NCBI GenBank assembly: GCA_002104905.1
Contig: MCFE01000005.1
Location: 186,001-250,000 of the forward strand
Direction of reading: 5' to 3'
Length of the DNA stretch: 64,000 nt
Origin: Basidiobolus meristosporus CBS 931.73
Taxonomy: Eukaryota; Basidiobolomycota; Basidiobolomycetes; Basidiobolales; Basidiobolaceae
How positions within the stretch are numbered: position 1 is the first letter of the stretch; each line of letters starts with the position of its first letter. Shown piece by piece: positions 39,524 to 64,000 of the stretch. The position numbers were made by a program, and so were the translations under genes. The notes beneath the pieces are model-generated. The model was given only the letters and a program-made list of their open reading frames with translations, was not told the DNA's origin and did no database searches.

Positions 39524-40339
39524 ATGTCAGGTGCCAAAACGCAAACAGTAGATTTGGAGGATCTTCCTTTACAATCACTTCAGCAAGTCAAGAGCCAGCT
39601 TGAGGAGGTATCTGCAACTATCTCGGTCGTCCGTGCTCTCACCTTCATCTTTTAACCAACCACCTGATTGTCGTAACCAAAAGGAACTTTCCCAACTTAC
39701 CTCTTCGTACTCGCAACTCAAGCAAGCCCAATCCACATTCAGAGATTGTAAGGAGTGTGTAGAAACCTTGAAGCCTGAAAACTCGGGTACGACAATTACC
39801 AGCGAACGATGCCCCCGATCGGGACTAATTCTCTCATTACAACAGGAAAAACCATCCTCATCCCCTTGACCAACTCTATATCCTTTTTTACTGATAATTA
39901 GGAGAGCGGGATTCTCTATCTCCATATAGGGTTTATTATTCACCTTAATTCGCAACTTACCTCTATGTTCCAGGAACTCTCGGAAATGTTTCAAACGTAA
40001 TTATCGATGTGGGAACTGGATACTACGTTGAGAAGGTAGGCATCAACCCGAAATGAATCCCTTCACACACCACGGCTCATATGTTTGATTCTTTCAGTCC
40101 ACCCAAGATGCCCATAGCTTCTATCAGGGCAAGGTTGATTACCTCCAAAACAACCTCGACAAACTCCAGGAAACCGTCACAGGCAAACAAAACAACCTGC
40201 GAGGTATTGTCATCTAATCCAGCCCACTCAGGCCTAGCATTCACATCCTTTTCCTTTTTCTTTCACAGTGCTTGTTGATGTCATGAATTCCAAAATATCC
40301 AAGCTTCAAGCCGAAAAGGAAGCTACCAAATCCTCTTGA
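39524..40339 (+). CDS. PFD5: Prefoldin subunit 5 (alpha-type)
   Basis: Six exons (39524-39607, 39684-39786, 39846-39877, 39961-40035, 40098-40203, 40269-40339) give 156 residues, the usual family size. Prefoldin is the hexameric cytosolic chaperone that hands actin and tubulin to CCT; this is one of its two alpha-type subunits. The protein has two coiled-coil arms around a hairpin core. The first arm contains LPLQSLQQVKSQLEE, the core TILIPLTNS followed by LYVPGTLGN and VIIDVGTGYYVEK, and the second arm VDYLQNNLDKLQETV. The third intron (39878-39960) is AT-AC, not GT-AG: only that junction rejoins LTNS to LYVPG in frame. The other four introns are GT-AG. The gene lies head-to-head with Dicer and 326 bases before RPS24. 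Confidence 0.92.
39878..39960 (+). other. U12-type AT-AC intron in prefoldin 5
   Basis: The 83-base intron starts ATATCCTTTT, the canonical AT-AC minor-spliceosome 5' site, and ends CTTAC. A branch-like CACCTTAAT lies at 39941-39949 with its adenosine 12 bases before the 3' end. No GT donor in the right phase exists near LTNS, and the next exon starts CTC TAT GTT CCA, giving LYVP as in other prefoldin 5 proteins. Confidence 0.88.
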
Positions 40340-52442: not shown

Positions 52443-55400
52443 TCAGCTTTGCATCAAGTTGGCGTATGAGCTTTTCGGTCGCGAGAGTGCATCCGGGTTA
52501 GGTGTGATGCTGGAGGATCTAGATCTACGCTGGTTCGAGGACTTGAATTCGTTGGCGGCGTTAAGCTGCTGCTGCTTGCGACGAAGATCCAGCTGGTTTA
52601 CTACGAAGTGTTTGGCTTCTTTGTCGGAGTGGGTTTGAAGAATCCGTAGGATGTAATCGCATCGCTCGGTAAACAGCCGTTTCTCGGATTTCCGTTCTTT
52701 GATGGTTCCGAAATGCCGTTGGATTTGTCTGTCGTCCTTCTCTCGATGTCCCGGCTTCTGTGCACTCTTCTTCATCGAGATGTTGTACTCGTTCATTAGA
52801 TCCTTGGTGCTCAACGAGAATAGCTCACGGGCCTCACACAATTCCTTGTACTTCCTGGTGGTAAGCCGCTCCATGGGAATCCCATCCCCATCTTCACCCC
52901 CGTTGAAATAAATCTTGATGAACTCAATGCACCTGTATATCATATCGATTTCGTAGGGCTCCAAAGGCTCATATTCTACGTCAAAAAGCGGTATCAACAA
53001 CCGCTCAAAGGCCAGCAAAACCTCCTTCCAGATCTTTTCGATCATGTTCTCAGCCAAGACGTCGTATATGTTTTCATTGATCATCCCAAGGTTGTTGTCC
53101 AGATAGTCAAACAGCGGGTATAGCATCCTGTCGCACTCTTCGTCAGTAATGCTTCGACTGGCGGTTTTGTTGGACGATTTCATAAACGAGAAATAGTTGT
53201 TACGCTTGAAGGGCATAATTAACCGGTTCCTTGATAAAAGTCCCTTGGTTTGAGATGAAAGTCGATTAATTACTGTTCGAATCATGTCGACATGGGTCGA
53301 TTTCAGTGTGCGGAACGTTTTGCCGAAGTAGAATTGCGCATCATTCTTCTCTCCTTCAATGTGGACTCGTAACAGGATCCTCCCTTGTGGCTCCAAATCC
53401 AACCACACGTCGTGCGTGAAGTAGTCACAGAAGATAGCAGGGTCCAGGTTGAAGTAGGCGGTTCCGCAGCAGTCGTCATCCTTCATCATGTCCTTATCAA
53501 ACACGACGACCTCCACGCTGCCGACACCCGAGAACGAGATTTGAAAGGTTTCCTCCCAGCGGGGGTTCAAATTCTCATATATGATGCGAGTGCGGCCTAT
53601 CTCTCGACCATTGCTTTTGAGGACTACATACGGATCGCTGAGCCCATTGCGATCGCATGGCTGCAGATCCTGGCCAAGGACAACCTCGACAAAATATCGA
53701 TGGACGTATGGCATGGGGCTTTCTGGGGTATCAAGCTCGGACCTTGGGCTCTGACCTTCCAAAGTCAGGGATACCTTGTCGATATCCAGGGAGTGGTATA
53801 GGTCATTAAGACGGTCCTGAGCGATCTCAATGTTGTTCAGCTTTACACAGGCTTGCAAACTAATGTCCGTTGGGGCCAGGTTTTCATCGAAAGAACCGAT
53901 GTGGGGTTTCTTTCCAAGATTCATCCAACTCGAGGACCCTGTAGGGTGTAGCTCTGGCGGAATGGCCTTCAGATCGTGTATGAATGTATCTAACGTGATT
54001 TGACAGTACTGCTCGACAATCTGGCTGATCACCTTCGAGAGCTTCAGCACAAATTGGGCCTTCAACAACTCATCGGGCCATATCAGCTCTGAGCTGGGTC
54101 GGATCTGCTGCTGGAAGAATGAGAATAGATCCACCACAGAGGTCGAGTGGCGTAGTCGATCGGAAATCATGGTGAACTGGTCCACGGCAATCGCACGCTC
54201 AACCCAGTCGTTAGCTTTGGAGCCAAGAGTGTTCAACCACCTTTCCACCTGGGCTTTGAACCACTTCCCTAAGTCAATCTGGAAATCAATTCTAAACCGA
54301 TCAAGATTCTGGTTAGTGCTTGTAAGTTCGCTACCAAAAGGTTCATCTCTTACTCGGGGCAATGCTCTTGGGCGATATGATGCAACTTCAACACGTGATT
54401 GTAGAGTTTGAATGTATCCTCAATAGGGATGTTTTCGCTCTTCTTGTCGTTCACCATATTCTGAACTTCGGGGATGAAGAAGTTCTTCAATGGGAAATGC
54501 AGGACGATACTGATGATATCAATCTTTTGGCTGAACACTGGCTTGGGGAAGCATTTCTGATACTTCGCAATGTCTCGAAGGATGAGTTCGTTGAGCTCCA
54601 GCAAGGTCAACGCTTCCGCTGCATCCGGCTCGGGGGAGACCAGTTCTCTCAGCTCGTAAAATCGCTTGATGGTTGAGTTGAGAACGATATCTCGGAACGT
54701 CTCATAGAATTGCTCTTGATTGGTGTGTTTCTCTTGATATAACGGGTATTGATGGATCTCTGATAGCATGGAGATCACAATACGAAACGTTTGAGGGGAG
54801 GTGGTGCCAAACATTCGGAACGAATGCTCGAATTGCTGCAAGAGCAAGGGAACCATGGCCTCGAAGATGCATAGAAGGTAGTTGGACTAGAATATACTTA
54901 GTTTCAACCCTCGGATATGGTGGAGAATGGAGTAGCCACTTACATCAGGAATATTCCAATCAATTTCATCGCATTCTTCCGTGGTTTTCTTAAGCATGAG
55001 AACTGCAGAGTCCAGGTAGCTAAGAGGAACAGCGCCGCTCTCGAACTGGTCGTTGATAACGTTCAGGTAGGCAACCTTTCTAAAGAGCTTCGTCAGCCTC
55101 CACCGATACCCACACTCGGCCAGAATCTCGTTCGAGAGCTTGGAGAGAGACAAGGTCTCCGTGGATTTTTTAACGTGTCCGAGGATATCCTTCTGAACAC
55201 AGCGCCTGAGCAGATTGAGGTAGCAACCCTTCGGATCTTGAGGCATGTAGGTAAATCCAGGCTTGGTGTACTTGATGAAGGGGCGTGGAAGCTTATATTA
55301 CTACCGAGAAGTATGGCTGGCAAATGGAAGCAATGCCTCAGTTACCTCAATGGCTGCGCTTTGATCTGCCCTTCCGGTGCGAGCTAAAGACATCATGAAC

Positions 55401-62338: not shown

Positions 62339-63999
62339 ATGCAGTTCCAACCGTTCGTGCTCAAAACCATACTTTCCGCGTTACTCCCGGAGGACCAATC
62401 ATCAGCCACCTCGCCTTCGCTTACTACACACCAACAAAGTCCACCACGCCTCCCACCAAGAAATTCCTCATTATCGCCAGTAAATCTCACGAGATCGTTA
62501 TCCGCTAGCTCTACTTCCTCACTGTTTTCTGGAAAAGTCACTGCCGAGTCCGTAGAAACTTGGGGTACTGTATACACGCCGCCCATTGTACTTGAGCCTT
62601 CCGACCACTGTTCTATACTGACAGCAATCTCACTCTGCAGACAAAAATGTATATGTTGGAACAAATGACGGGTATATATATCACTACTTGGCTGCCGATC
62701 TGTCTTTATCGGACGATGTACATATTTCCAAATATACCTATATGCATTGCAACCAGTATTGACCAAAGGTGCCCTATTTACGTGCAATAGGAAGATGAAA
62801 GCCCACAACTAATTCAGAAGCGCAATCTTGGTGTTGGTAAGAAGTCGGTAGAGAGAATCGTGGCACTTCCCACTATTTCTAAGCTTGTGGTGCTGTGTGG
62901 TATGTAACTACCAAGAAACTGTTATACTTCGTAAATGGTCGAGCTTACGCCCATTCTAGATTCGACCATTATGTTCTTCACACTTCCTGACCTAAGCTCT
63001 ATACCACACGAAATCATGGCACCTATCCGAGGGGTAACTTGCTTGTGTTTCGACGAAGGAAACTCGTCGTTTCAGAAAAATCGAGTTTCAATGTGTGCCG
63101 TTAAGAGGAGAGCTGTCCAATTTTACCAGTTGGGCGATGGGGCCGTCTTGGAGCGGGTAATTGGATGGGATACCTATACACGACGAGCTTGGACATATTT
63201 CTAACAGTTACCCGATCTGCGTAGGAAACATCTCTCCCGGATGGTGCAATTACTGTCTGCCGTTTTGAAAACCATTTGTGCTTTGCGGATACATATTCCT
63301 ACAAAATCCTGGATATTCGTACTTCACGGGCCATAGATCTTATCCCAACCTCCAAAGGAAATTCAGACTGGGGTATCAAGAACAGCAGCGCATCTTTAAA
63401 GCCGATCGTTACTGTGGTAGACAAAGGGGAGTTTCTTCTTATTACCGCAGCAGCTGGAGCCCATATCCTTTCTGAAATGATTTCTGCTCATGCCGCCCAG
63501 TACTTGTAGCGTTGTATTTCTTAACATGCGTACAATCGGCTTTAGGAATGTTCGTCACGTCTTCCGGAGATCCTACCAGAGGAACTCTTCAGTGGCCTAG
63601 CCATCCCCGAGCCATCGGTAAGTGTTTCAGCACCAGTGCATTAGCGATCTTAGTGCTGATCGCGTACTTCGCATCTCATAGGGATTCATTTTCCATACGT
63701 GATTGCCCTTCTTCGAAACAACACCATCCAGATCCATAATCTTCTTGACCAAAAATTGATGCAATCATTTGGCTTTACCCGGAATATGGAGGTTCGGAAC
63801 CTCGTGGAGACGAATGGAATGGTGTTTTCAGCGCCTTCCATCCTGGACATGTCTCAAAGCCTCCCAAGTCTAGCCACCACGTTTCTCATCACCAGAGACT
63901 CGTTAATGACTCTGGCTCCACTTCCTTTGATTACCCAAGTATGTCGGTGTCCAATATATATCGCTGATCGTCTCGTTCTAATCCAGCGGGTTGCAGGTG
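62339..63999 (+). CDS. VPS3: TGFBRAP1/Vps3-type vacuolar sorting protein (CNH domain), 5' part
   Basis: Eight exons reach the window end: 62339-62564, 62641-62717, 62818-62899, 62960-63156, 63225-63462, 63534-63617, 63682-63938 and 63986 onward (about 390 residues). The sequence is a CNH (citron homology) beta-propeller as in Vps39 and TGFBRAP1/Vps3, subunits of the HOPS and CORVET endosome tethers. Evidence: NVYVGTNDGYIYHYL, then ERIVALPTISKLVVLCD, SMCAVKRRAVQFYQLGDG, ETSLPDGAITVCRF and LCFADTYSYKILDI. GMFVTSSGDPTRGTLQW, IHFPYVIALLRNNTIQIHNL and LMTLAPLPLITQ follow; the last fits TGFBRAP1/Vps3 better than Vps39. A Ser-rich insert follows the first 20 residues. Intron 5 (63463-63533) is AT-AC and alone rejoins the frame; the others are GT-AG. 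Confidence 0.85.
63463..63533 (+). other. U12-type AT-AC intron in the Vps3-like gene
   Basis: The 71-base intron starts ATATCCTTTC and ends GCGTAC. A branch motif TTTCTTAAC lies at 63517-63525, its adenosine 9 bases before the 3' end. Exon 5 ends in phase 1 (GCC C) and exon 6 starts AA TCG GCT, giving AAAGAQSALGMFVTS. The GT donors nearby (63500, 63506) and the AG acceptor (63545) cannot be joined in frame. Confidence 0.88.
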
Positions 64000-64000
64000 G

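Follow-up and report, generated by a model that had tools for sequence, protein, structure and literature searches.

The segment at 63463-63533 of the window, by which we mean the whole 64,000-nucleotide stretch of Basidiobolus meristosporus DNA that was analysed, is almost certainly a real minor-class intron of the AT-AC subclass, cut out by the U12-dependent spliceosome. On the strength of its sequence elements, its reading frame, its agreement with a public gene product and the matches to minor snRNA and CENATAC genes in the same genome, we infer that it would be removed by the U12 route in the cell. It confirms what has been published about minor splicing in early fungi. The part that deserves specialist attention is the U6atac gene of this organism, in which the bases that usually pair with the 5' splice site are altered.

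An AT-AC intron in a Vps3/TGFBRAP1-like gene

The features of the intron and its host gene are as follows.

63463-63533, forward strand: AT-AC U12-type intron, 71 nt, phase 1, dividing a Gln codon (C^AA); the join is also present in public protein P0001
63463-63472, forward strand: U12-type 5' splice site ATATCCTTTC; pairs with the U11 5' end, U4-U9 with G8-A3
63517-63525, forward strand: branch site TTTCTTAAC; its putative branch A, at 63524, lies 9 nt from the intron end
63532-63533, forward strand: 3' splice site AC, read from the sequence
62339-64000, forward strand: Vps3/TGFBRAP1-like gene, 5' portion, beginning at the public protein's ATG; the gene runs past the window end (contig C757)
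63225-63462, forward strand: exon 5' of the intron, ending EFLLITAAAGA plus C
63534-63617, forward strand: exon 3' of the intron, AA plus SALGMFVTSSGDPTRGTLQWPSHPRAI plus G

In the window sequence the intron reads ATATCCTTTC...TTTCTTAACATGCGTAC. Its 5' end fits the U12-type form [AG]TATCCTTT, with ATATCCTTT found without mismatch at 63463, and its branch site TTTCTTAAC departs at one position from TTCCTTAAC shortly 5' of the 3' end; the AC end and the restored frame are those of the AT-AC subclass. An unmismatched ATATCCTTT together with CTTAAC 9 nt from the intron end is the signature of the minor class. The intron shares with U12-type AT-AC introns the ATATCCTTT 5' site, the CTTAAC branch near the 3' end, the AC end and phase 1, and shows no notable difference from them.

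The upstream exon reads ...VDKGEFLLITAAAGA plus one base before 63463, and if the intron were left unspliced, a TAG would be met at 63507 in the upstream frame. The downstream exon, AA SALGMFVTSSGDPTRGTLQWPSHPRAIG, holds a conserved block of Vps3/TGFBRAP1 proteins. Joining 63462 to 63534 yields AGAQSALGMFVTSS, identical to the public protein, with Gln as the seam residue. That protein, K493DRAFT_403612 (P0001) of B. meristosporus CBS 931.73, is the best match of the gene and comes from a contig of 279,783 bases; since it carries AAAGAQSALGMF at the intron join, the public gene model already has the 63462/63534 join. The intron had been proposed in an earlier note on this DNA, and its coordinates, letters, 71-nt length and phase were all verified; the assignment to a Vps3/TGFBRAP1-like gene, whose public product shares the splice, is supported. 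Some of our own exon joins downstream of the window were partly wrong: P0001 uses different ends at several introns, and our query was 91% identical to it. Among these was an apparent GT-AC intron between ERM and KAG, where ERMRYELEYIYRKAG of the public protein is consistent with a GT-AG intron whose acceptor we had overlooked; the intron at 63463-63533 is unaffected.

Alternative spliceosomes and alternative joins

Some AT-AC introns are of the major class and are handled by the major spliceosome, according to the accessible part of PMC8280824, and the 63463-63533 intron could in principle be one that the U2-dependent machinery removes. The unmismatched ATATCCTTT, the CTTAAC 9 nt from the intron end and the matches to minor snRNAs in the genome all argue against this, and we consider it highly unlikely.

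We also listed the stop-free joins between the upstream and downstream frames, allowing the end pairs GT-AG, GC-AG, AT-AC, AT-AG, GT-AC, GT-AA and AT-AA, introns of at least 30 nt, starts at 63380-63511 and a last base no later than 63550. No GT-AG join was open among these seven end kinds and within these limits. GC donors at 63385 and 63388 gave six open joins, and the GC-AG joins remove the conserved EFLL block. There are further open joins of the AT-N and GT-N kinds, and almost all of them add or lose residues. The AT-AG join 63463-63545 keeps MFVTS, loses QSALG and separates acceptor and branch A by 21 nt, and the AT-AA join 63465-63535 preserves the length of the protein but puts His where the public protein has Gln. 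It is therefore extremely unlikely, given the lack of an open GT-AG join, the loss of EFLL and the His residue, that other ends (GC-AG, AT-AA or similar) or an assembly frame error merely mimic an AT-AC intron here. The earlier note held that only these boundaries restore phase 1 and the GMFVTS block, which is too strong: 63463-63533 has the best boundaries of the open joins, none of them GT-AG, but these are not literally the only ones, with other AT-N and GT-N joins open.

A second AT-AC intron, and the expectation by chance

A second gene with the same signature, as the earlier note had claimed, is that for prefoldin subunit 5.

39878-39960, forward strand: AT-AC U12-type intron in the prefoldin subunit 5 gene, 83 nt, phase 0, branch site ACCTTAAT

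Joined over this intron, the product is 100% identical to the public protein P0093 at all residues over 156 amino acids. Seven joins are open here among five end kinds tested, none of the seven being GT-AG, and 39878-39960 alone yields IPLTNSLYVPG. This intron is as sound as the one at 63463-63533.

The pattern combining the AT-AC features occurs once in the window and at least once in 2 of 400 dinucleotide shuffles. For a wider U12 pattern there are two matches in the window, at 39878 and 63463; 15 of 400 shuffles had one occurrence and none had two (mean 0.0375). Both patterns were written after the introns had been seen, and so the protein evidence weighs more than the shuffles. The bare 8-mer ATATCCTT is found seven times in the window against 2.87 expected, a count reached by 3 of 100 shuffles, and two of the seven sites are confirmed as introns; on its own the 8-mer is weak evidence, being mildly over-represented.

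As a stand-in for a genome-wide count, we scanned 27 loci of the genome. TATCCTT with an exact TTCCTTRAC partner was absent from all 27, and so was a control pattern with the branch reversed; TATCCTT with TYCTTRAC occurred once, at the 63463-63533 intron. There were three sites of ATATCCTTT in two of these loci, that intron included, and five of GTATCCTTT in five loci. The seven pattern sites beyond the 63463-63533 intron were viewed by eye. Two, in L020 and L025, lie in near-identical, repeat-like stretches, and at four others no U12 intron was seen by eye. The remaining one is an 86-nt GT-AG intron of U12 type on the contig that bears U6atac (L003:8169-8254, forward strand), with GTATCCTTT and CACCTTAAC; among the joins tested, this one reads KFEAKRTEVPQLRDEYRTYKILAG, in what we take to be a casein kinase I-like gene. 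A further candidate, ATATCCTTAGG at position 5150 of L002, fits a looser pattern and was set aside, as the public protein is without residues there and a GT-AG intron seems to end at this point. Position 55185 of the window likewise fits the looser U12 pattern.

Relatives and the published survey

At the point where B. meristosporus reads AAAGAQSALGMF, the protein of B. ranarum (P0002) reads AAAGAHILFESSLGMF (...AHILFE...), and that of Umbelopsis vinacea (P0006) reads NVNNHILLKAHTTIGIF (...NHILLK...) at the same codon. HIL is the translation of C^AT ATC CTT, that is, of an unremoved C^ATATCCTT read as exon. It was found at the intron position in none of the remaining fungal proteins compared; Umbelopsis sp. 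WA50703 (P0007) reads NVNNQTTIGIF at this codon. We infer from these protein sequences that an AT-AC intron of the same position and phase was probably overlooked in the annotations of B. ranarum and U. vinacea. If both relatives have it, the intron would be older than the divergence of these lineages.

A survey of minor introns that covers B. meristosporus was reportedly made by Larue and Roy in 2023. In the part of the survey available to us, which spans over 3000 genomes, B. meristosporus has 249 minor introns, or 0.554% of its introns, and the highest minor-intron density in fungi (PMC10639083). Rhizophagus irregularis, which branches early among the fungi, is likewise rich in minor introns and has all four snRNAs, its figures being 205 and 0.272% as against 249 and 0.554% (PMC10639083, same part). 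The suggestion in the earlier note that this genome has a substantial number of minor introns is borne out by the reported 249 and by the four minor snRNAs matched here. As the survey drew on annotated introns, and 63463-63533 is part of the public model, its tables likely list this very intron. The minor-intron richness of B. meristosporus being published, the intron finding is already known in substance. Our search for Basidiobolus minor introns, which lay mostly outside the subscription literature, found PMC10639083 alone.

The minor spliceosome of Basidiobolus

All four minor snRNAs were matched in the assembly: U6atac once (63.2 bits), U11 twice on different contigs (L005 and L006, 76.8 bits each), U12 once (46.9 bits) and U4atac once (43.4 bits), the last two below the Rfam curated cut-off of 53. 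PDCD7, which belongs to the U11/U12 particle, gave one weak piece of 26.3 bits (32.5 with its neighbours) with one internal stop. CENATAC/CCDC84 (PF14968), a factor that acts on AT-AN introns, gave three pieces of 41.2, 33.1 and 27.7 bits, above the family's cut-off. Depletion of CENATAC in human cells affected 92% of A-type and 24% of G-type minor introns, as stated in the accessible part of PMC8280824.

The U11 5' end AAAAAGGGC and the U12 segment GAGUAAGGA are intact. The 5' site at 63463 pairs with Basidiobolus U11 as well as with consensus U11, and branch pairing is weaker with Basidiobolus U12 than with consensus U12 (-3.7 versus -5.0 kcal/mol). In the cell, U11 would bind AUAUCCUUU and U12 would bind UUUCUUAAC, leaving the branch A bulged; U11 would give way to the U4atac/U6atac.U5 particle and CENATAC, and splicing would end at the AC that follows the branch A by 9 nt, giving the phase-1 join that reads Gln.

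A U6atac with a changed 5'-site pairing stretch

L001:1501-1634 (contig C779:39963-40096), reverse strand: U6atac gene, the sole copy found

The Basidiobolus gene keeps from the U6atac family (RF00619) the GUGUUG start, GAGAGA, UUAGCA and the AAGGA/GGAA partner of U4atac. It differs at nucleotides 11-16, which read AGUCGA where the Rfam consensus has AAAGGA, a change at three positions. In the alignment the six bases of this changed stretch carry the top posterior mark, and a few bases preceding them do not. The consensus AAAGGA pairs with U4-U9 of the 5' site; with AGUCGA, C6 and U7 of the site are therefore unpaired in the usual register. Opposite CC5/6 of the 5' site, where GG would be expected at nucleotides 14/15, the Basidiobolus U6atac reads CG. 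In CHO cells, the loss of splicing caused by a change at CC5/6 was suppressed by a matching change of U6atac GG14/15, and fully so when U11 was also matched, so that full splicing of the changed site requires a matching U6atac (PMC4980772, accessible part).

For the Vps3 5' site, the best computed duplex weakens from -8.2 kcal/mol with consensus U6atac to -4.1 kcal/mol with that of Basidiobolus, the latter being a shifted duplex in which GAGAG (consensus nucleotides 15-19) faces intron positions 6-10 (C6-C10). The prefoldin 5' site shares this register, at -2.5 as against -6.8 with the consensus; the casein kinase site, at -5.4 as against -6.5, pairs in an unrelated register. We had considered nucleotides 20-23 (AAAG) as the shifted pairing element; the best duplex for Vps3 and prefoldin uses GAGAG instead.

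Our tentative reading, which we hold at somewhat short of an even chance, is that the U6atac gene is live and that its product holds the 5' site in an altered way. A live U6atac might hold the site at the catalytic step by the shifted, weaker pairing and by proteins such as CENATAC, and the intron letters would be maintained by U11 alone, as U11 could do because its 5' end is unchanged. That the gene is instead a dead copy, the ordinary U6atac being absent from the assembly or missed in our search, is a serious contender that we nonetheless rather doubt. Three differences fall within the six key bases, the assembly is in 1311 contigs, and the model search scored 46 of 3836 candidates. However, the model search and a DNA search both returned this single copy, and an ordinary copy should score above a changed one. 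The gene also retains a 13-bp pairing with U4atac (-20.4 kcal/mol) and a 7-bp stem I (-10.0 kcal/mol), ends in a T-run and has TCCCATA at -64, close to the -63 of such an element in eight of eight U6 loci. Scans of the viral_contigs and genome_contigs collections with U6atac core patterns, made to find other U6atac sequences for comparison, gave no matches.

If the gene is live, the oddity may matter more than the intron, with hundreds of minor introns reported and the sole detected U6atac lacking the standard match; Basidiobolus would be a natural system for testing what recognises the 5' site once U11 leaves. No title on a changed fungal U6atac appeared among the matches listed, and Basidiobolus with U6atac brought up PMC10639083 and a springtail genome paper only, both searches lying mostly outside the subscription literature.

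A shared upstream element of snRNA genes

Eighteen U6 loci lie above the cut-off, and the eight that we fetched and inspected all have TCCCA[TC]A at -63 (five TCCCATA and three TCCCACA). CCCATA lies at -65 of the one U11 copy tested of the two, at -60 of U12 and at -63 of U4atac, which has an additional CCCATA at -89. We regard CCCATA as likely to be an snRNA promoter element common to U6 and the minor snRNA genes, and its sharing points to live minor snRNA genes. Across both strands of 330,802 bases, TCCCATAA occurs 18 times, a count that includes the snRNA genes and overlaps. The element, about 60-65 bases upstream of snRNA genes, was seen in L001, L004, L005, L007 and L028-L035.
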